From Blastococcus colisei (GTDB lineage: Bacteria; Actinomycetota; Actinomycetes; Mycobacteriales; Geodermatophilaceae), in the NCBI RefSeq assembly GCF_006717095.1, contig NZ_VFQE01000001.1:1364001-1428000 (forward strand): a stretch of DNA of 64,000 nt. Reading direction: 5' to 3'. Below are positions 34,458-44,953 of this stretch, one piece after another. The position numbers and the translations under genes are program-made. Below the pieces are notes generated by a model that saw nothing but the letters and a program-made list of their open reading frames with translations, was not told the origin of the DNA and did no database searches. Each line of letters opens with the position of its first letter. Position 1 is the stretch's first letter.

Positions 34458-37400
34458 TCAGCAGGTGGCCGGCAGGTGCTCGAGGTTTCGGACGACGGTG
34501 TGCGGCGAAGAAGCGCCGGAGCGGAAGGCGGTCTCGAAAGCGTCGTCCCCCATCAGACTGCGCGCGGCGTGCTCCGCCCGGTCGACGTCGACCAGTTCCA
34601 GCTTGCTCGGGGGACGATGCCGCCTCTGCCGCCACCACGTGGCAGCACCGAGCAGGCCCGCCGCGTCCACGCCCTCTCCCCGCGCCGCTGCGACGCAGGC
34701 CAGCCCTTCGAGGGCGGCGGCCCGGCCCGGAGCGGCCTGCCACGCCCGGCGGTGGAAACTCTCCGCGGTGCCCAGATCTCCGCCGAGCTCGGCCAGATGG
34801 CCGAGGCCGACCAGCGCCGTCGCCGTCCAGTCCGGTTCGCTCTGCCCCGCCAGCAGCTGCTGAGCACGGCCCAGCTGGATCCGGGCGAGCTCCAGGTCGC
34901 CCAGCTCGCGGGCGAGCAGACCGTCACCCACCGCCGCCCGCGCGTTGCCCTCGGTGCCGAGTTCCTGGCCGACCTGGTGCGATTCCGCGAAGGACCGCGC
35001 AGCGCCCTCGGCATCGCCGAGCAGGAGCCGCACGTGTCCGACCCCGGCGAGGGCGTACTGGATCGTGTTGACCGGGCCGCCCACCGCGCGTCCGCTGGTC
35101 AGTGCCCCCTCGTACATGGCGAGGGCATCCTCCAGGGAACCGGCCCGGTGCAGCGCCATGCCGAGATGGAACTGGATCGCCGAGACACCCCACTGGTCCC
35201 CGAGCGCGCGGAAGGTGGCCAGCGCCCGGTTCCCGGTCGCCACGGCCTCGGTCATCGCGCCCCCGGCTGCGAGCAGTTCCATCTCCACGAACCGCACGAG
35301 CGCCGCGCACCAGGCGTCCTCCGCCCGGGAGAACTCCTGGTCGGCGTCGGCGAGCAGGGCGAAGGCCGGTGCCGGGTCGTCGCTGCCGATGCCCTCCACG
35401 GCCAGCAGGGTCGTGGACAGCGCGGCGCGGAAGTCGTCGCCCAGCTCCGCGAAGAGAATGCGGCTCTCGGCGGCCGCGGCGGCACACTCGGCGGCCGGGT
35501 GCACGATGCAGGCACCGGTACGGCCTGCGACGGCCAGGGCCTGGAGCGCTCGTGCCCGTGCCGCTGCGGAACCGCCCGGCGCGGCGGCGAGCATGGCGGC
35601 GACCCTGCTGCCGCCGTCGGGCCGGCTGGCGAAGTACCAGTACCAGCCCAGGGCCCCGACCAGCCGGAGGCCGACGTCCGGCTCGACGTCGGCGTGGGCG
35701 GTGCACCAGGCGAGGGCGGCCTCGATGTCGTCGCGCTCCAGTGCCAGCCGGGGGAGCCACCGGGACTGGCCGTCCCCGCGCAGCTCCCGCTCCGCCCGCT
35801 CGGCGAGATCGGTGAGGTACCCGACGTGGGCTCGTCCGATCCGGTCGGCGTCCCCGCCCTCGGACAGGCGATGGCGGGCGTACTCGCGAATCGTCTCCAG
35901 CAGGTGGTACCGCGGGCCGGCGTCGCGGTCGACGACGACCAGCGACCGGTCGACGAGTCGCGCCAGCGTGTCCACCACGGCGTTCGGGGGCAGGTCGTCC
36001 CCGGCGATGGCGCGCACCGCGTCGATGGTCCAGGTGCCGCGGAAGATCGACAGCCGGCTCAGCAGGACACGCTCGGGATCGGTCAGGAGGTCGTAGCTCC
36101 AGTCCACTGTCGCCCGGAGAGTGCGCTGCCGCGCCTCTGCGGTTCTCGGCCCGCTCGTCAGCACTGCGAAGCGGTCCTCCATGCGGTCAGCGAGCTGGCT
36201 CACCGGCAGGGAAGCCACGCGGGCGGCGGCCAGCTCGATCGCCAGTGGGATGCCGTCGAGGTGCCGGCAGATCTCCGCGACGGCGCCGGCGTTGTCGTGG
36301 TCGAGGTGGAAGTCAGGGAGCACGTTCTGTGCCCGGTCGACGAAGAGCCGTACGGCCGTGCTGGCGGCCACCTCCCCGGCGACGGGATCCGGAGGCGGGA
36401 CGGGCAGCGGATCGACGGCGTACTGCACCTCACCGCGGGCGGCCAGGGGTTCGCGGCTGGTCGCCAGGATCCGCAGCTGTGGGCAGGACTCGAGCAGGTG
36501 CTCGGCCAGCACGGCGCAGGCGTCCACGAGATGTTCGCAGTTGTCGAGGACCACGAGGACGGCGCGGTCGCGGAGGTGACCGATCAGCTGCTCCTCGGCC
36601 GTCGTCGTGGGGGCTTCCCGCACGTCCAGGGCGGTGAGAACGGCGTCCGGCACCTGCACCGGGTCCACCACGCCGGCGAGCCTGGCGACGCCGATGCCGT
36701 CGGGGAAGCCGCCGGCGACCGTGCGGGCGACCTCGAGAGCGAGGCTGGTCTTCCCGACCCCGCCGGGGCCGATGACGGTGATCAGCCGGTGCCGGTGCAG
36801 CAGCCCCGCGACACGCTGCAGGTCCTCGTTCCGGCCGAGGAACGATGTCAGGCGCAGGGGGAGGCGACGAACCGCGGACGGCGGCGGCGGGGCCTGCCGG
36901 GGAGCGGGCACCCGCTCGGGAGCCCCCAGATCCGGGCGTTGCTGGAGGATCGCCTGCTGCAGGCTCCGCAGTTCGGCGCCCGGCTCCAGTCCCAGGTCGG
37001 CAGCCAGCGCATCGCGCGCTCGCTGGTAGGCGGCGAGGGCTTCGGCCTGGCGTCCGGCCCGGTACAGGGCGAGCATCAGCCGGGAGTGCAGCCGCTCCCG
37101 CAGCGGGTGTGCAGCCGTGAGCGCTTCCAGGTCCGCGATGACGTCGCCATGGCGCCCGGCGGCGAGCCCGAGATCGATCACCTCCTCCCGTGCCGCGAGC
37201 TGCAGTTCGGTCAACCGGGCGGCATCCGGCTCCGCCCAGGGGGCCGAGCCGAACTCCGCGAACGGGGCGCCGCGCCAGAGCGACAGGGCCTCCCGGTACA
37301 GGTCGCCGGCTCGCGCCGGGTCGTCGTCCGCCACCGAGCGGGCGGTCGTGATCAGACCGGAGAAGCGGATCGCGTCGACGGCGGAGGGATCGACCTCGAG

Positions 37401-37673
37401 GACGTATCCCGGGCGACGGGTGGCGATCAGCCCGGCAGGGAGGCCCAGCCCGGCGAACGCCCGGCGCAGCTTGGAGACCCGCACCTGCAGGGCGTTGTCC
37501 GGATTCCCGGGCAGGTCCTCGCCCCAGAGTGCGTCGATCAGCGCGGAGGCGGCCACGACCCGTCCCGCGGAGAGTGCCAGCAGGGTCAGGAGCTCGCGTT
37601 CACCGGCAGCAGGGACGGGGTGGGGGACGCCGTCGGTGAGCACCTCGACAGGGCCCAGGACACGGATCTCCAT
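34458..37673 (-). CDS. SARP/AfsR-family transcriptional regulator
   Basis: This encodes 1071 residues. An OmpR-type winged helix (about 1-95, with SKLRRAFAGLGL) is followed by a BTAD domain (about 97-245), an NB-ARC ATPase (P-loop GPGGVGKT at 302-309; DNCEHLVDA later) and a TPR-like C-terminal region to the end. Such proteins bind direct heptamer repeats and activate specialised operons. ATG 37673 gives an N-terminus starting exactly at the DNA-binding domain. It is divergent from the multicopper oxidase operon. Direct heptamers at 11-bp spacing lie in that gap and in the gap at 43.3 kb, which suggests its targets. Confidence 0.93.
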   Translation of the reverse strand: MEIRVLGPVEVLTDGVPHPVPAAGERELLTLLALSAGRVVAASALIDALWGEDLPGNPDNALQVRVSKLRRAFAGLGLPAGLIATRRPGYVLEVDPSAVDAIRFSGLITTARSVADDDPARAGDLYREALSLWRGAPFAEFGSAPWAEPDAARLTELQLAAREEVIDLGLAAGRHGDVIADLEALTAAHPLRERLHSRLMLALYRAGRQAEALAAYQRARDALAADLGLEPGAELRSLQQAILQQRPDLGAPERVPAPRQAPPPPSAVRRLPLRLTSFLGRNEDLQRVAGLLHRHRLITVIGPGGVGKTSLALEVARTVAGGFPDGIGVARLAGVVDPVQVPDAVLTALDVREAPTTTAEEQLIGHLRDRAVLVVLDNCEHLVDACAVLAEHLLESCPQLRILATSREPLAARGEVQYAVDPLPVPPPDPVAGEVAASTAVRLFVDRAQNVLPDFHLDHDNAGAVAEICRHLDGIPLAIELAAARVASLPVSQLADRMEDRFAVLTSGPRTAEARQRTLRATVDWSYDLLTDPERVLLSRLSIFRGTWTIDAVRAIAGDDLPPNAVVDTLARLVDRSLVVVDRDAGPRYHLLETIREYARHRLSEGGDADRIGRAHVGYLTDLAERAERELRGDGQSRWLPRLALERDDIEAALAWCTAHADVEPDVGLRLVGALGWYWYFASRPDGGSRVAAMLAAAPGGSAAARARALQALAVAGRTGACIVHPAAECAAAAAESRILFAELGDDFRAALSTTLLAVEGIGSDDPAPAFALLADADQEFSRAEDAWCAALVRFVEMELLAAGGAMTEAVATGNRALATFRALGDQWGVSAIQFHLGMALHRAGSLEDALAMYEGALTSGRAVGGPVNTIQYALAGVGHVRLLLGDAEGAARSFAESHQVGQELGTEGNARAAVGDGLLARELGDLELARIQLGRAQQLLAGQSEPDWTATALVGLGHLAELGGDLGTAESFHRRAWQAAPGRAAALEGLACVAAARGEGVDAAGLLGAATWWRQRRHRPPSKLELVDVDRAEHAARSLMGDDAFETAFRSGASSPHTVVRNLEHLPATC

Positions 37674-37754: not shown

Positions 37755-37798
37755 CGACAGCGTCCGGACAGGGTCCGGACAGCCGGACGGACGACGGT
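37755..37798 (+). promoter_or_regulatory. SARP-type heptamer array before multicopper oxidase
   Basis: There are three direct heptamers, CGACAGC (37755), GGACAGG (37766) and GGACAGC (37777), exactly 11 bp apart. A -10-like GACGGT (37793-37798) begins 9 bp after the last one. Heptamer repeats with this spacing just upstream of the -10 are the signature of SARP activation. They point toward the oxidase operon. Confidence 0.75.
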
Positions 37799-37830
37799 TC
37801 TCGTCGTAGCAACGCGGCGGAGGGGACACG

Positions 37831-39801
37831 GTGATCACGTTCCACGTACCGGCGATGAGCTCGCGTTCCAGCGTCCGGGCGATCAGTGCCCGGGTCTGCG
37901 ACGTGGCCGGTGTCCGCACCCTCGAGGCGGATCTCGTCACCAGAACCGTCCGGGTGACCGGTCCCGCCGAGCCCGCCCGGATACGGGCCGCGCTCGCCGC
38001 CGCCGGATACGCCGCCGACCCGTGCGTCCCCGCCGGGTCGTCCATCCGAGAACCACGGACAGGGGGCACTCCCATGAGCACGCAGATCAGCAGCGCAGGA
38101 ACTCCGACGGGACATGTCCACGCAGCGCACGATGCCGGATACCTGTCCGGCACCTTCCCGACCGATCCCACCGGACTGCCCGAGGCCACCCCGCCGGCCG
38201 TCGTGGAGTTGCCGGACGGCGCATCCCTGGAGCTGCGGATGGCCCCGGTCGCCAAGCGCCTGGCCGGGACGACGGTCCGCATGCTGGCCTACAACGGCTC
38301 GGTGCCCGGACCCACCATCACGGTGCGCCAGGGCGGTCGGCTGACCGTGCGCGCGACGAACGACACCGACTCCGACACCACCGTCCACTGGCACGGCCTG
38401 CGCCTCGAGAACAAGTACGACGGAGTTCCGCACGACACGCAGCAGCCGATCCCGCCGGGGGCGAGCTTCACGTACCGCCTGGATTTCCGCGACCCCGGTG
38501 TGTACTGGTACCACCCGCACATCCGGGAGGACTACACGCAGGAGATGGGCCTCTACGGCAACATCCTCGTGCTCCCGGCCGAGCCCGACTACTGGCCGCC
38601 CGTGCACCGCGACGTCGTCCTCACCATCGACGACGTTCTGATCGAGGACGGTGCCATCGCCCCGTTCCGCCGCTCCGAGGTCACCCACGCGGCCATGGGG
38701 CGGTTCGGCAACGTGTTCCTCGTCGGTGGAGAGACCGACCACGCCATGACCGCCAGGGTCGGAGAGGTGGTGCGGCTCTGGCTGACGAACACCGCCAACG
38801 TCCGGGTCTTCGACCTCCACCTGCCGGGTGCGCGGATGAAGCTGGTCGGCGGGGACAGCGGGCGGGTGGAGCGCGAGGAGTTCATCTCCCACCTGCTGAT
38901 CGCGCCCTCCGAGCGGGCGATCGTGGATGTGCTGTTCGAGGAACCGGGGCACTACACGGTCGAGCACCGGACGCCGGATCGCAGCTATCCGCTCTCCAGG
39001 ATCACCGTGATCCCCGAGACCGCGGAGCCCTCGCTCCGCGGCTCCTTCGGCACCCTCCGTTCCGCCCCCGAGCTCGACGCGGAGCGCCGGCAGCTCGACC
39101 ACTGGCTCGCCGCTCCGCCGGACAGGATCCTGGCCGCGGTCGCCGAGATGGACGACCCCTCCGGACCGGCCCCCGGGTGGCCGGTGACGTACGCCTGCCC
39201 CATGCACCCCGAGGTGGTCAGCGACGAGCCCGGCCGCTGCCCGAAGTGCGGGATGAAGCTGCTGGCTGCGTCACCGGACGGCGCGGCCGGCCACCACGAC
39301 ATGGGCCACGACATGTCGACGATGGATCACCACGAGGCGCCCGCCGTGCACGACCACGGTCACGGTCAGGGTCTCGGCACCGGTGACGGCATCGAGTGGG
39401 AAGACGACATGGTGGAGGTCAACCGGCTGACCACGCCGGCGACCATGCGCTGGCAGCTGCTGGACCGGACCGCCGGCACAGACCGGCCCCCGGTCGGCTG
39501 GAGCTTCACCACCGGTGACCGCGTCAAGATCCGGCTGGTCAACGAGATGGACTCCGACCACCCGATGCACCACCCGTTCCACCTGCACGGCGCCGGCCGC
39601 TTCCTGGTGCTCTCCCGCGACGGCGTTCCGGAGCCGAACCTGGTCTGGAAGGACACGGTGCTGCTCCGTACCGGCCAGACCGTCGACATCCTGTTCGACG
39701 TGACCAACCCGGGGATCTGGATGGCCCACTGCCACATCCCCGAGCACATGGCCAGCGGCATGATGTTCACCTTCACGGTCGCCGAGGGGGCAGGGGCATG
39801 A
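37831..39801 (+). CDS. Multicopper oxidase with HMA-like N-terminus and metal-binding insert
   Basis: This encodes 656 residues from GTG 37831, which has GGAGGGG upstream. Residues 1-65 resemble a heavy-metal-associated domain, but both metal cysteines are serines (M-S-S11-R-S-S14). Residues about 120-400 hold two cupredoxin domains with copper motifs HWHG (186-189) and HPH (228-230). A heavy-metal-binding insert (YACPMHP...CPKCGMK, 454-476) and a His/Met-rich linker (488-511) precede the third domain, with HPMHHPFHLHG and HCHIPEHM supplying type 1 and type 2/3 ligands. It should oxidise a metal ion or phenol using O2. No Sec or Tat signal is apparent, which is unusual. An internal ATG at 38074 could start a form without the HMA-like part. 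Its stop overlaps the next gene. Confidence 0.92.
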   Translation: MITFHVPAMSSRSSVRAISARVCDVAGVRTLEADLVTRTVRVTGPAEPARIRAALAAAGYAADPCVPAGSSIREPRTGGTPMSTQISSAGTPTGHVHAAHDAGYLSGTFPTDPTGLPEATPPAVVELPDGASLELRMAPVAKRLAGTTVRMLAYNGSVPGPTITVRQGGRLTVRATNDTDSDTTVHWHGLRLENKYDGVPHDTQQPIPPGASFTYRLDFRDPGVYWYHPHIREDYTQEMGLYGNILVLPAEPDYWPPVHRDVVLTIDDVLIEDGAIAPFRRSEVTHAAMGRFGNVFLVGGETDHAMTARVGEVVRLWLTNTANVRVFDLHLPGARMKLVGGDSGRVEREEFISHLLIAPSERAIVDVLFEEPGHYTVEHRTPDRSYPLSRITVIPETAEPSLRGSFGTLRSAPELDAERRQLDHWLAAPPDRILAAVAEMDDPSGPAPGWPVTYACPMHPEVVSDEPGRCPKCGMKLLAASPDGAAGHHDMGHDMSTMDHHEAPAVHDHGHGQGLGTGDGIEWEDDMVEVNRLTTPATMRWQLLDRTAGTDRPPVGWSFTTGDRVKIRLVNEMDSDHPMHHPFHLHGAGRFLVLSRDGVPEPNLVWKDTVLLRTGQTVDILFDVTNPGIWMAHCHIPEHMASGMMFTFTVAEGAGA

Positions 39802-40916
39802 CCGCCCGGGAGCCGGTCGGCACCGCTGCCGAGGGCACGCGCGCCCGGCCCTACGACGTGGTCGTGGTCGGCGGCGGCCAGGCCGGCCTGGCCGCCGCCT
39901 GGCACCTGCGGCGACGTGGGCTGCGGTACGTGGTGCTGGAGGGCGCCGCGCAGCTCGGCAGCTCATGGCGCGCTCGCTGGCATTCCTTGCGGCTGTTCAC
40001 CCCGGCGGAGTACGACGCCCTGCCGGGCATGCCGTTTCCCGCGCCGGCCGGCAGCTATCCCGGAAGGGAGGCGGTCGCCGAGTACCTGCGCAGTTATGCC
40101 GAGGCCAACGACCTGGACGTCGAGCTGAACGCCCGTGTCATCGCCCTCGGTCGGACCGGCGCCGGGTTCGAGCTCAGGACGGCCGAGCGGACGATCCATG
40201 CCGGCCAGGTCGTGGTGGCCACCGGCCCCTTCCAGGTCCCGTTCACGCCCTCGGCCGCCGACGAACTGGACGACTCGGTGGCCCAGATCCACAGCGCCGG
40301 GTACCGCGACCCCTGGTCGTTGGCAGATGGGCTGGTGCTCGTGGTGGGCGGCGGCAACTCGGGCTTCCAGATCGCCGAGGAGCTGGCCGGCTCCCGGCAG
40401 GTGGACCTGTCCGTCGGCGCCGGGTACCCGATGCTGCCCCAGCGACTGCTCGGGAGGGACCTCTTCTGGTGGCTCACCCGGACCGGCCTGATCCGCGTGC
40501 CGGCCGGCTCCCGGCTCGGCCGCCGCATGCAGGCGCGCGGGGAGTTCGTGATCGGGACCGGCCGGCGACGGCTGGAGGCCGCCGGCGTCCGGTTCCGGCC
40601 GAGGCTGGTGCAGGCCGCCGGGCGGACCGCACGGTTCGCCGACGGCAGCACTCTGGACGTCGGCGTCGTCGTCTGGGCGACCGGCTACCGGTCGGACCAC
40701 TCGTGGATCGACGTCCCCGGGGTGCTGCACGACGGCCTGGTCGTGCACCGCCGCGGCGTCACCGAGGTGCCCGGCCTGTACTTCCTCGGCCTGCCCTGGC
40801 AGCACACCCGCGGCTCGGCGCTCCTCGGCTTCGTCGGCGAGGACGCCGCCCACGTGGCGGAGGCCGCCCGCCTGCTCGCCGCTGACCTCGGCACCCCGTT
40901 GTCGACGCCGGCCTGA
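39798..40916 (+). CDS. Flavin-dependent monooxygenase-like oxidoreductase
   Basis: This encodes 372 residues. A FAD-binding GxGxxG (VVVVGGGQAGLAAA, about 22-35) and a second dinucleotide motif (VVGGGNSGFQIAEE, about 180) mark the CzcO/FMO type. A VVWATGYRSD stretch near the end matches the family ATG motif. These enzymes use NADPH and FAD to hydroxylate small molecules or transfer electrons; the substrate is unknown. Its ATG overlaps the oxidase stop by 4 bp (ATGA), so the two products are made together. Confidence 0.87.
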   Translation: MTAREPVGTAAEGTRARPYDVVVVGGGQAGLAAAWHLRRRGLRYVVLEGAAQLGSSWRARWHSLRLFTPAEYDALPGMPFPAPAGSYPGREAVAEYLRSYAEANDLDVELNARVIALGRTGAGFELRTAERTIHAGQVVVATGPFQVPFTPSAADELDDSVAQIHSAGYRDPWSLADGLVLVVGGGNSGFQIAEELAGSRQVDLSVGAGYPMLPQRLLGRDLFWWLTRTGLIRVPAGSRLGRRMQARGEFVIGTGRRRLEAAGVRFRPRLVQAAGRTARFADGSTLDVGVVVWATGYRSDHSWIDVPGVLHDGLVVHRRGVTEVPGLYFLGLPWQHTRGSALLGFVGEDAAHVAEAARLLAADLGTPLSTPA

Positions 40917-40941
40917 CCCGCACGGAGAGGACGACGGACCC

Positions 40942-42372
40942 ATGGCCGGCCACGAGAAGCAGCTCATCGCGTTCCCGGTCCATCCGGGCGTGACCCCGCT
41001 GGACGTGGTCGGGCCGCTCACCGTTCTGCGGAACCTCAGCGGAACCCCGTACCGGACGGTCGTCGTCGGGGAGCGCATCGCGCCGACCGAGACCGACACC
41101 CGGATGCGGGTGGTCCCGGCCGCGACCTTCGCCGAGGTGCCGCGTCCCTACGCCGTCGTCGTGCCGGGCGGGGGAGCGGCCACCCTGTCGGCGATGGAGG
41201 ACGAGGCGTTGCTCGGCTACGTGCGGTCCACGGCCGGGACTGCAGAGCTGGTCGGATCGACCGGCGCGGGCGCGCTCGTCCTCGCCGCGGCCGGCGTCCT
41301 CGAAGGACGGCGGGCAGCCGTCCACTGGGCCTACGCCGACCTGCTGGAGAGCCGGGGAGTGACTTACGCCCCGGAGCGCTGGGTGGCGGACGGCCGGTTC
41401 CTGACGGCGGCCGGCGGGTCGGCCGGGATCGACATGATGCTGGCGCTCCTCGCCCGGCTGAAGAGCAGGTCCGCGGCCACGCTGGCCCAGCTGTTCATGG
41501 AGTACGACCCCGAACCCCCGTTCGGCCCGAGCGACCGGAGCGGCGACGGTGAGCTCGCCCGGCTGCTCAGGACGTCACCCGCCGCCGACCGCCGCCGACC
41601 GGCGCGAGCAGAGGAGCTGATCCGCATGCCGGCTGCGACCGGGGGCGAGCGGACCATCGCCGTCGTGCTGTACCCAGGCCTGACGCTGCTGGACCTCGTC
41701 GGCCCGCTGCAGGTCCTGACCGAGCTCGAGCGGTTCGCGCCGCAGTACCGCACCGTGGTCGTGGCCGCCCGCATCGAGCCCATGGCCACCGATGTGGGGG
41801 CCGAGGTGGTCCCCGACCAAACCTTCGCGCAGGTCCCGCACCCGTACGCGATCGTCGTCCCCGGCGGCAGGGGCGGCACGATCCGGTCCATGAGCGACCC
41901 GGAGGTCCGGGGGTACGTGCGTGCGGCGGCAGCGTCGGCGGCGATCGTCGGATCGGTGTGCACCGGCTCGCTGATCCTCGCGTCCGTGGGCCTGCTGGCA
42001 GGGCGACCGGCGACGACCAACTGGTTCTTCTCCGGAGTGCTGAGGCCTTTCGGTGCCCACTACCACCGCAAGCGCTGGGTGGAGCACGGCAACGTGATCA
42101 TGTCCGCCGGTGTCTCGGCCGGCATCGACATGGCCCTGTACCTGGCCGCCCGGCTCACCGACGAGGCGACCGCGCGGCGCGTCCAGCGGGCGATCGACTA
42201 CGACCCGCAGCCCCCGTTCGGTGGCATCGACTGGGGTCACGTCCCGCTGCTGCCCCGCGCCATGCGCGGCGCCGTCGGGCTGGCGGCGCCGGTGATCGCG
42301 GCCCGGCCCATGTGGGTGTCCCGCGTGGAGCGCCGGTCACGTCGGGACTCGACCCGAGCCGCCGTCCCGTAG
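40942..42372 (+). CDS. Tandem DJ-1/PfpI-domain protein
   Basis: This encodes 476 residues in two related DJ-1/PfpI domains (about 7-195 and 236-430). The second keeps the nucleophile elbow GSVCTGS with Cys340. In the first the same position reads GSTGAGA, with Gly108 in place of cysteine, so that domain is probably not catalytic. The second domain resembles isonitrile hydratase and AraC-associated types, which hydrate isonitriles or act as glyoxalases. Both domains end with a similar YDPxPPFG motif, a sign of internal duplication. It is the third gene of the oxidase operon, 25 bp after the monooxygenase. Confidence 0.88.
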   Translation: MAGHEKQLIAFPVHPGVTPLDVVGPLTVLRNLSGTPYRTVVVGERIAPTETDTRMRVVPAATFAEVPRPYAVVVPGGGAATLSAMEDEALLGYVRSTAGTAELVGSTGAGALVLAAAGVLEGRRAAVHWAYADLLESRGVTYAPERWVADGRFLTAAGGSAGIDMMLALLARLKSRSAATLAQLFMEYDPEPPFGPSDRSGDGELARLLRTSPAADRRRPARAEELIRMPAATGGERTIAVVLYPGLTLLDLVGPLQVLTELERFAPQYRTVVVAARIEPMATDVGAEVVPDQTFAQVPHPYAIVVPGGRGGTIRSMSDPEVRGYVRAAAASAAIVGSVCTGSLILASVGLLAGRPATTNWFFSGVLRPFGAHYHRKRWVEHGNVIMSAGVSAGIDMALYLAARLTDEATARRVQRAIDYDPQPPFGGIDWGHVPLLPRAMRGAVGLAAPVIAARPMWVSRVERRSRRDSTRAAVP

Positions 42373-42463
42373 GAGCGACGGGCGGTGTCCTCCCCGGGGC
42401 GCCGCGCCGCCCACCGCGACCGGGTGTGGCAGGTCGCCGCCACCGGCCGCGGTAGGTGGACCG

Positions 42464-43243
42464 CTACGCGGCCCCGGTCCCGTCCGTCACCTGGATGCCG
42501 CCGCTCGGGGCGGTCGCCGCCCGGATGGCGGCGAGCGTCACGAGTGCGGCGAGGATCGTCAGGGGCCAGCCGAGGACCAGTTTGCCCGCCGCGAGCAGCC
42601 CCGGCTGGTCCGCGAGGTACAGCACCGTCTGTCCGCCGGCGCGGACCCCGAAGACCACCGACCAGCCGATCGTGGCGGTCGTCAGGGTGCGGCGCAGGGG
42701 GGTGGTCCAGGCCCCCGGACCTCGGCGGTCCACGAGGAGTCCGTACGCGATGCCGACCAACGGCCGGCCGATGAGCACGGAGCCCAGGAAGACGATCGCG
42801 TACGTCGCGTCGACGTAGATGGCGGGAAGGAAGAAGTCGCGGGCCTCGCCGGCCTGGAGGGCGAACGCGACGGCGATCGCGAGCCCCGCCAGGCCGCCGA
42901 GTGCCTGCCGCAGCGGCTGCCGGCGGACCAGCCGCACGGCCACGATGCCGCCCCCGGTGACCGACGCGGCGGCGGACGCCATGGCCAGGGCGGTCGCACG
43001 GGGAGCGCTCGCACCCACGACGGCGTTCACGACCGCGAAGACGAGTGGTGGCAGGCCGCCGTCGAGAATGCCGCGACCGCCGCCGAGCACGGCGAGCACG
43101 CGGGCGCGGAGCGGATCGTGCGGCGTCGGGTGGTGCGGCGTCGGTTCGGCGACGCCGAACAGGCCGCCGATCGCCGGGATGGTGGAGCGGCGGACGCGCC
43201 GGCCTCCCGGCCGGATGCCGGTGCCGCTCTCGGACGAGCACAT
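42464..43243 (-). CDS. DUF3159 membrane protein
   Basis: This encodes 259 residues. After a basic N-terminus of about 45 residues come five to six transmembrane helices with the family's GGGRGILDGGLPPLVF motif and a central RDFFLPAIYVDATYA loop. DUF3159 proteins are actinobacterial integral membrane proteins of unknown role. The gene converges on the DJ-1 gene and is divergent from the MFS gene. Its upstream region carries heptamers in its own orientation, so it may belong to the SARP regulon. Confidence 0.85.
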   Translation of the reverse strand: MCSSESGTGIRPGGRRVRRSTIPAIGGLFGVAEPTPHHPTPHDPLRARVLAVLGGGRGILDGGLPPLVFAVVNAVVGASAPRATALAMASAAASVTGGGIVAVRLVRRQPLRQALGGLAGLAIAVAFALQAGEARDFFLPAIYVDATYAIVFLGSVLIGRPLVGIAYGLLVDRRGPGAWTTPLRRTLTTATIGWSVVFGVRAGGQTVLYLADQPGLLAAGKLVLGWPLTILAALVTLAAIRAATAPSGGIQVTDGTGAA

Positions 43244-43296
43244 CGGGATTCCTCTCGGACGGGCCTGGGCCGACGCGGCCGGGGGGCCGTGGCGTC

Positions 43297-43329
43297 AGAC
43301 TGCCCAGCAGTGCTGTCCCGGCGCTGTCC
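43297..43329 (-). promoter_or_regulatory. SARP-type heptamer pair before DUF3159 gene
   Basis: On the minus strand GGACAGC occurs twice (43323-43329 and 43312-43318), 11 bp apart. A -10-like CAGTCT (43297-43302) begins 9 bp after the second. The layout matches the array at 37755. Confidence 0.7.
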
Positions 43330-43388
43330 GTCCGGCGTCATGACGGGGGGAGACCGCGTCACCCGCGCCAGCGACCCGTTCAGCGCCC

Positions 43389-43421
43389 GGACAGCGCCGC
43401 GACAGCCCCTGCACGCACCCT
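43389..43421 (+). promoter_or_regulatory. SARP-type heptamer pair before MFS gene
   Basis: GGACAGC (43389) and CGACAGC (43400) are 11 bp apart. A -10-like CACCCT (43416-43421) begins 9 bp after the second. This is the third instance of the same layout. Confidence 0.7.
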
Positions 43422-43462: not shown

Positions 43463-44953
43463 ATGAGTTCCCACGACGCGGCGGTGCGGCCGTCGCCCGA
43501 CGAGTCGATCGTCGAGCCGCCCGCCGGGGGGCATGCCGCAGGGCCCTCGAGCCGTGCGCACGGTTCGGCATCGCCGGCACCGCCACCTCGGGATCGGACG
43601 CGAAGCATGCCGGTGGCGGTGTGGGCGCTGGTCATCGGCGCCTTCGCCATGGGTGCCGACGAGTTCATCGTCGCGGGCGTCGTCCAGGAGATCGCCACGG
43701 CCCTGCGCGTGACGATCGGCGACGTCGGCCACTTCGAGAGCGCCTACGCGGTGGGCGTGGCCGTGGGCGCCCCGCTGTTCGCGGCGCTCGGCACCCGGTT
43801 CCCGCGCCGCAGCATGCTGCTGGCGACCACCGGCGTCTTCCTGGCCGGCAACCTGCTCTCGGCCCTGGGCCCCTCCTACGGCCTGATCATGTCCGGCCGG
43901 GTGGTGTCGGCGATGGCACACGGCGCGTTCCTCGGGATCGCGGCGGTCTACGCCGCCGAGCTCGTCGATCCGGCTCGCAAGGGCCGGGCCGTCGCCACGG
44001 TGTTCACCGGCCTCACCGCGTCGACGGTTCTCGGTGCCCCGATCGGTGCGGCCGTCGGGCAGGCGCTGGGCTGGCGGTTCACCTTCTGGACCCTCGTGGC
44101 CCTCGGTGGCCTGGCCTTGATCGGTCTGCTGGCGTTCCTGCCACCCACCGCCCGACCCGACGGCTCGGCCTCCCACGGGCACGGAGCGGCCGGGCACACC
44201 GGCCCGCCGCACGGCCACCAGGAGCACGGCCACCAGGAGCGCCACCACGAGGCGCGCCACGACCACGCAACCGCTGAGACGGACGGCCTGGACGCGCACG
44301 CCCTGGCGCACCTGGGTGGCGGCGGGCACGAGCCGAGCATGCGCGAGCAGCTCGCCGCTCTGCGTCGTCCCGCGGTGTGGGCAGCCCTGCTGACCACGCT
44401 GCTCGGCTACGGCGGTGTGTTCACCAGCTACGTCTACATCGCCCCGCAGTTCACCGAGGTGACCGGCTTCTCGACCGGATGGATCACGCCGCTGCTGCTG
44501 CTCTTCGGCATCGGACTCTTCGCCGGCAACGACCTCGGTGGCCGCCTCGCGGATCGGCGGCTGATGCCGGCGGTCCTCGGGACCATCGGCGCGCTGGCGG
44601 CGGTGCTGTTCGCCATGACCTGGCTGATCGAGCACCCGGTCACCGCGGTGATCGGCACGTTCGTCTTCGGCGCCGCCGCCTTCGCGGTGGTCGCCCCGCT
44701 CCAGCTGCGGGTCATGAATGCGGCCGGGCATGCGCGCGACGTGGCCTCGGCGGCGAACATCTGCGCCTTCACCCTCGGCAGCGCGCTGGGCATCTACCTG
44801 GGCGGTGCCGCGATCGACGGGGGACTGGGGTTGGCGTCGGTCAACTGGGTCGGCGGGCTCATCAGCACCGCGGGTCTGGTCATCGCGCTCGTCAGCTGGG
44901 TACTCATCGATCGCCGGTCGACCCCGGAGCCGCAGCACCAGCACCAGCACTGA
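43463..44953 (+). CDS. MFS exporter with histidine-rich loop
   Basis: This encodes 496 residues with about twelve transmembrane helices in two halves of six (FAMGADEFIVAGV in the first; NDLGGRLADRRLMPAVLG in the second). It is most like AraJ/Cmx-type drug-proton antiporters. The central loop (about residues 235-290) is extraordinarily rich in histidine (HGHQEHGHQERHHEARHDH), and the C-terminus ends QHQHQH. Such clusters usually bind Cu, Ni or Zn. GAGGAGA precedes ATG 43463. Its promoter region shares SARP-type repeats with the multicopper oxidase, so metal export is a fair guess. Confidence 0.87.
   Translation: MSSHDAAVRPSPDESIVEPPAGGHAAGPSSRAHGSASPAPPPRDRTRSMPVAVWALVIGAFAMGADEFIVAGVVQEIATALRVTIGDVGHFESAYAVGVAVGAPLFAALGTRFPRRSMLLATTGVFLAGNLLSALGPSYGLIMSGRVVSAMAHGAFLGIAAVYAAELVDPARKGRAVATVFTGLTASTVLGAPIGAAVGQALGWRFTFWTLVALGGLALIGLLAFLPPTARPDGSASHGHGAAGHTGPPHGHQEHGHQERHHEARHDHATAETDGLDAHALAHLGGGGHEPSMREQLAALRRPAVWAALLTTLLGYGGVFTSYVYIAPQFTEVTGFSTGWITPLLLLFGIGLFAGNDLGGRLADRRLMPAVLGTIGALAAVLFAMTWLIEHPVTAVIGTFVFGAAAFAVVAPLQLRVMNAAGHARDVASAANICAFTLGSALGIYLGGAAIDGGLGLASVNWVGGLISTAGLVIALVSWVLIDRRSTPEPQHQHQH

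Follow-up and report, generated by a model that had tools for sequence, protein, structure and literature searches.

In a 64,000-nucleotide stretch of the Blastococcus colisei genome (contig NZ_VFQE01000001.1, positions 1,364,001 to 1,428,000; hereafter the window), three arrays of heptamers precede a multicopper oxidase operon, a DUF3159 gene and an MFS transporter gene, close to the gene of a large SARP. Judging from sequence comparison, it is very probable that the three arrays are the operators of this SARP for one small regulon and that its clade has been recruited for defence against a metal, most likely copper. Comparison between genomes gives good support to the predicted SARP regulon. 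The sequences make a strong case for a metal role in two related subclades of the SARP (B and C). For the window, whose SARP belongs to subclade A, a copper role is what I infer, since there is no CopA among the genes behind its arrays (the oxidase operon, DUF3159 and MFS). An earlier note, made from the window alone, had proposed the SARP regulon itself; the present analysis adds the nature of the targets, which are metal-resistance-like genes.

The layout described in the earlier note was verified at every position. Heptamers at 11-bp spacing precede the oxidase gene (three copies), the DUF3159 gene (two, on the minus strand) and the MFS gene (two), and the last heptamer of each array is followed by 9 bp and a NANNNT hexamer. 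Every array points toward its own gene, and the SARP gene lies beside the first array, divergent from the oxidase gene (Table 1). A third, weaker copy in array 3 (GTTCAGC) can be added to that listing. Arrays 2 and 3 share the single intergenic region between the DUF3159 and MFS genes. The downstream genes start at 37831 (oxidase, GTG, 32 bp past the array 1 hexamer), 43243 (DUF3159) and 43463 (MFS).

Are such arrays scattered over the genome? The earlier note had proposed a genome scan and had named many arrays at random positions as an outcome that would speak against it. The own genome (5,160,276 bases or 5.16 Mb, 4 contigs) was scanned for an exact 33-mer, defined as a SGACAGS pair at 11-bp period, then 9 bp, then SANNNT, with the reversed pattern as the control. 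Only three sites were found, which are the three window promoters and lie within 5.7 kb; the control gave none. There was no further exact 33-mer elsewhere in the genome, the CopA and CsoR genes included. Thus, the claim of a SARP regulon is supported, since the scan returned just the three promoters. Allowing one mismatch added two sites, compared with one in the control. The exact pair SGACAGS-N4-SGACAGS occurs eight times in the whole genome (83 times with up to one mismatch), and four of the eight fall inside the window arrays. Among the other exact pairs (L001, L006, L007 and L008), L001 and L007 lie in long frames with a coding-like composition. With two mismatches allowed, the window shows no enrichment of the pair (31 matches vs 25 expected), so the array signal resides in near-exact copies.

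Table 1. Features of the window (positions counted from its first letter)
Feature	Position	Strand	Detail or basis
Large SARP, 1071 aa (OmpR-type wHTH, BTAD, STAND NTPase, TPR)	34458..37673	-	Pfam, phmmer, AlphaFold2 (AF2)
H836, co-conserved with the candidate loop	35166..35168	-	conservation
Candidate metal-binding loop C722-x2-H725-P-x3-C730, TPR part	35484..35510	-	conservation
Recognition helix, residues 60-71 (NALQVRVSKLRR)	37461..37496	-	ungapped alignment to AfsR
Array 1, multicopper oxidase promoter	37755..37783	+	three heptamers, 11-bp period: CGACAGC 37755; GGACAGG 37766; GGACAGC 37777
Array 1 -10-like hexamer GACGGT	37793..37798	+	9 bp beyond last heptamer
Multicopper oxidase with N-terminal HMA-like and internal heavy-metal-binding domains	37831..39801	+	Pfam
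Flavin monooxygenase-like protein	39798..40916	+	Pfam Pyr_redox_3; overlaps oxidase stop
Tandem DJ-1/PfpI protein	40942..42372	+	Pfam 5.5e-44, two stretches
DUF3159 protein	42464..43243	-	Pfam 3.2e-41
Array 2 -10-like hexamer CAGTCT	43297..43302	-	9 bp beyond last heptamer
Array 2, DUF3159 promoter	43312..43329	-	two heptamers: GGACAGC 43329; GGACAGC 43318
Array 3, MFS promoter	43378..43406	+	weak GTTCAGC 43378; GGACAGC 43389; CGACAGC 43400
Array 3 -10-like hexamer CACCCT	43416..43421	+	9 bp beyond last heptamer
MFS transporter	43463..44953	+	Pfam MFS_1 1.1e-45

The arrays were then followed through 112 genomes of the family, the own genome included. Fifteen of them, again with the own genome, encode this SARP or a full-length relative with 42-71% identity. 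The exact 33-mer was found 48 times in 26 genomes (the reversed control twice). It is present in all 15 orthologue genomes and in 11 of the 97 others (Fisher 4.9e-12, a value that ignores the kinship of the arrays). Thirty-six of the 48 matches lie in or beside the orthologue locus, two of these on a second G026 contig, which appears to be the adjoining one to judge from the gene order. One further match is on a contig with the same genes (G084), three adjoin paralogous SARPs (L107-L109), and one adjoins a decayed SARP remnant (G055). In the remnant (L221 7217-7874), two SARP pieces in different frames, with 49-63% identity, stand beside an intact-looking array, and HMA and P1B ATPase genes are nearby. 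The paralogue arrays are of the CGACAGS type with the hexamer at 9 bp (L107 7078-7110, L108 6641-6673, L109 7211-7243), and they face an FAD oxidoreductase, an alpha/beta hydrolase and an unassigned region. Seven matches belong to genus g8 (L077-L083), single in each genome, and no SARP match was found within 1.5 kb on either side of them.

The same association was seen when 394 genomes from across the class were sampled; 20 of them contain the exact 33-mer. Among the matches listed for a subclade B SARP query (E up to 1e-130), seven genomes score at least 508 bits and the rest at most 485. All seven orthologue loci have an array with the hexamer, six of them exact and one (G159) with one mismatch; the exact 33-mer is thus present in 6 of 7 orthologue genomes vs 14 of 387 others. 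These loci adjoin HMA, MFS or CopA genes, and G000 has the window regulon. The seven genomes span five families (f1, f13, f15, f19 and f36). Taken with the exclusive sites in the own genome, this co-occurrence of arrays with the SARP argues for the predicted regulon.

The spacing between array and hexamer was surveyed in 17 loci (the window and L091-L106), which contain 57 arrays, 52 of them distinct. A NANNNT hexamer lies at offset 9 in 43 of the 52, each other offset from 3 to 15 has none or one, and the background is 1.6%; the binomial value for offset 9 is overstated because the arrays are related by descent. Without removal of duplicates, 48 arrays have the hexamer. None of them is inside a called open reading frame (ORF); for 39 of them, a start was called on the same strand no more than 250 bp away. 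The remaining nine include six subclade A promoters, where the crude ORF caller placed the HMA-like/oxidase start too late. By direct inspection, the hexamer is 29-32 bp from the start at 9/9 SARP-divergent promoters of subclade A. Five of the nine arrays lacking the hexamer face the subclade B SARP gene, and one is inside an ORF.

In the SARP, Pfam domains BTAD (1.4e-43), Trans_reg_C (8.6e-10), TPR_12 and nSTAND1 were found, with TPR_12 above, nSTAND1 at and NB-ARC below the cut-off. A phmmer search against the PDB matched AfsR and EmbR. The AF2 model has a mean predicted local distance difference test (pLDDT) score of 91.2, and it fits the AfsR SARP domain in the initiation complex with a TM-score of 0.91 (target-normalised) and 1.9 A. 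The protein reaches 232.3 bits with NCBIfam NF053617, the AfsR orthologue profile, whose cut-off is 1430 bits; by this comparison it is related to AfsR, not AfsR itself. A tree of 72 SARPs was made from the first 720 residues, with every second named outgroup sequence and a midpoint root. Subclades A, B and C form one clade with a support of 0.999, and A and B group together with 0.793. The tree members are from f1, f13 and f19; the f15 and f36 proteins were placed by score and motif.

The target genes in the relatives point to copper. In the six subclade B loci (L101-L106), hexamer-bearing arrays precede a gene for a 78-residue HMA protein (CRQC) in six, an MFS gene in six, a P1B ATPase gene in four and a gene for an 84-residue HMA protein (GMTCDHC) in three as called. 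No ATPase cluster gene was seen in L104, and no array was found for the ATPase in L105. The L101 ATPase bears GMTCASC and CPC. In the G145 relative, the subclade B pattern recurs over two contigs (L214 and L215), with the P1B ATPase array-linked in L215. The ATPases of L101 (subclade B) and L218 (subclade C) pass TIGR01511, the copper-translocating family, with 576 and 610 bits (cut-off 397). Thus, a copper P1B ATPase is array-linked in subclade B and, with weaker arrays, in subclade C, but not in the window regulon. Because the boxes of the relatives precede copper-pump and carrier genes, a regulator class known from antibiotic production appears to have been taken over for defence against metals.

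In the window, the oxidase, monooxygenase-like and DJ-1/PfpI genes form an operon-like row divergent from the SARP gene; the monooxygenase-like protein is below the cut-off of the NCBIfam ArsO-like family. In subclade A as a whole, arrays precede HMA-like/oxidase, DUF3159, MFS, abhydrolase and CAAX-type protease genes. DUF3159 genes are present in four of the 17 surveyed loci, and all four carry an array (window 42464-43243, L093, L095 and L096), which hints at a place for DUF3159 in a stress regulon.

Does subclade A also respond to copper? The SARP regulon may be real and the signal of subclade A another one, for example a phenolic, oxidative or drug stress that the oxidase, flavoenzyme, DJ-1 and MFS proteins would counter, copper control being ancestral or confined to subclades B and C. 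I consider this rather unlikely, although several traits speak for it. The subclade A loci have no CopA gene behind an array, abhydrolase and CAAX-type protease genes are among the targets, and the own genome has separate CopA and CsoR-type genes. The HMA-like domain lacks CxxC in 9/9 subclade A loci, and both cysteines are gone in eight of the nine (L091 keeps one); the rest of the domain is conserved. On the other hand, the oxidase bears HMA and heavy-metal-binding domains, and the subclade A SARPs keep C722, H725 and H836 in 10/10 proteins and C730 in 9/10.

These residues make up C-x2-H-P-x3-C and a distant histidine, a candidate metal site of subclades A and B as judged from conservation. 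C722, H725 and H836 are found in 15/15 proteins of the two subclades and C730 in 14/15 (L040 lacks it). They are found in none of 77 outgroup large SARPs (with 72, 38, 74 and 75 letters in the columns of C722, H725, C730 and H836). The motif also occurs in L214, L229 and L234. It was not found in subclade C (L217 and L218), nor in L235-L257. The motif as a rule for every copper-linked SARP is ruled out by subclade C. In the AF2 model, whose alignment had no motif-bearing sequences, residues 721-724 lie in a linker between two helices and are, besides the last three residues, the only segment of the TPR part below 50 pLDDT.

Further observations weigh against the assignment of the arrays to a SARP clade of metal defence. 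The oxidase HMA-like domain of the window (37831-38030) is among those without CxxC, and CopZ is missing from the window regulon as well as CopA. The CopA-type gene of the own genome lies near a CsoR-type gene and has no exact array; a CopA-type ATPase gene, a fragment resembling the C-terminal part of the ATPase and the CsoR-type gene are located at G000 C1:1713664-1717368. In subclade C (f19), the exact array is the one directed at the HMA/flavoenzyme side, those facing CopA have one or two mismatches, and the SARP lacks the Cys/His motif despite the adjoining CopA. The recognition-helix residues differ from those of AfsR (K68 for R92 and V64 for T88). Since the arrays share descent, p-values overstate the association. 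Six SARP-facing arrays, five in subclade B and one in L214, have no -10 hexamer at 9 bp (L101 9455, L103 12260, L104 12009, L105 12695, L106 9415 and L214 12766). The first five are 53-54 bp from the SARP start, counted from the expected hexamer end. Perhaps these arrays serve autorepression or belong to another promoter layout.

Another regulator, either a paralogous SARP or a nearby TetR protein, might bind the arrays and the adjacent SARP be incidental. The similar CGACAGS arrays of the within-family paralogues (L107, L108 and L109) would agree with this. However, the arrays track this SARP group through five families, and the 15 other within-family SARP loci (L046-L060) lack any hexamer-bearing pair, even with one mismatch allowed. 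The surroundings of 80 other large SARPs, the best 80 among the matches listed, contain no exact pair in 1.35 Mb. Thus, it is improbable that the arrays belong to another regulator. Chance or base composition as the origin of the arrays, for which the exact 33-mers in 14 of 387 other class-sample genomes and the 2-mismatch pairs at their expected number in the window could be cited, is extremely improbable and was ruled out by the reversed-pattern control (three of three own-genome sites within 5.7 kb; 48 vs 2 in the family) and by the offset test with its peak at 9.

The absence of exact pairs around the 80 other large SARPs also rules out SGACAGS as a motif common to all large SARPs. In 79 upstream regions of these SARPs, heptamers with a CAG core at 11 bp have NANNNT at offset 9 in 13 cases, and the other offsets at period 11 have none or one. 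When any repeated heptamer (6/7 identical) was counted in the same regions, periods 11 and 9 were raised and offset 9 gave no peak. The offset-9 layout was seen in L112, L113, L116, L127, L140, L149, L150, L154, L157, L172, L184, L186 and L190, and TGTCAGC, CGACAGC and CTACAGG are among the heptamers of these regions. There is perhaps a general promoter code of large SARPs with a CAG core, and SGA before CAG may be the specificity of the copper clade within this common layout. As for copper genes around the 80 loci, weak CopA-like matches were found at L120 and L130, several kb away from the SARP, and the rest were mostly MFS matches.

How might the SARP work on the arrays? DNA binding, activation, copper as the signal and the sensing site are what I infer here. 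SARP protomers would occupy adjacent 11-bp repeats across the -35 region, and the bound SARP would recruit RNA polymerase to the weak -10 hexamer 9 bp downstream. The oxidase-monooxygenase-DJ-1 operon, the DUF3159 gene and the MFS pump gene would then be switched on. The signal would probably act on the TPR/STAND part and free the DNA-binding domain. Activation would proceed as in AfsR, but with a metal-linked signal. More tentatively, the SARP clade may itself be a metal sensor-activator, in which copper would bind the C-x2-H-P-x3-C loop and H836 and thereby free the SARP domain. The loop would then belong to the TPR region of a STAND protein that resembles NLRs, and the small HMA protein whose gene adjoins that of the SARP might deliver the copper.

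SARPs have been described as activators of antibiotic clusters, and for most large SARPs no signal is known. With a clade that combines copper genes and a defined operator code, the SARP family would reach into metal homeostasis, and the copper link would give a large SARP a plausible ligand. The regulon would supply DUF3159 with a regulatory context, and the operator code would serve as a pattern with which complete regulons can be found by sequence search. If the sensor-activator proposal were true, it would mean a new class of bacterial metal regulator on an antibiotic-activator scaffold. A term search of a SARP review from 2024 (PMC10972967), covering its main text, did not find "copper". 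In the sections of PMC6436437 drawn on here, a protein spot from yeast, assigned to a SARP of Salinispora, is reported to vanish under copper; these sections, which pair SARP and copper, describe no SARP-controlled copper genes. The consulted sections of PMC5867642 name SARPs in an antibiotic cluster and have copper in the references alone.

Among known systems, CsoR and other dedicated bacterial copper regulators control CopA, CopZ and oxidase genes. They are repressors, two-component systems or MerR proteins, and none of them is known to be a SARP. EmbR of Mycobacterium tuberculosis (PDB 2fez, 2ff4) shares the wHTH-BTAD fold with the window SARP, but it has a C-terminal FHA domain instead of STAND-TPR, as noted in the portion of PMC10936776 used here. 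AfsR of Streptomyces coelicolor (PDB 8hvr, 8k60, 8jke) has wHTH, BTAD, STAND/NB-ARC and TPR parts as the window SARP does. According to the same portion of PMC10936776, two AfsR SARP protomers bind 11-bp repeats that overlap a poor -35 element and contact RNA polymerase at a suboptimal -10 element, and the NOD and TPR domains are inhibitory until ATP binding. The general rule given there is 8 bp between the 3' repeat and the -10 element. Since the AfsR contacts span 8 bp per repeat, a gap of 8 or 9 bp can hinge on how the repeat is cut. The window arrays fit this layout, with 11-bp direct repeats of which the last is about 8 bp (9 after the heptamer) from the -10 hexamer. The afsS promoter in that source likewise has two 11-bp direct repeats over -35, its TTCAGC aligning with GACAGC, and a weak NANNNT-type -10 (CACTGT). 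Unlike AfsR/afsS, the window has the heptamer GGACAGC and not the AfsR-type repeat. In an ungapped alignment, K68 (invariant in 15 aligned proteins) and V64 occupy the places of R92 and T88, which contact bases -38 and -36 in AfsR. Together with G-C replacing T at -38, this makes a change of specificity plausible. Unlike AfsR again, the window SARP has a candidate metal loop, and the array-linked genes are not afsS but resemble metal-resistance genes.

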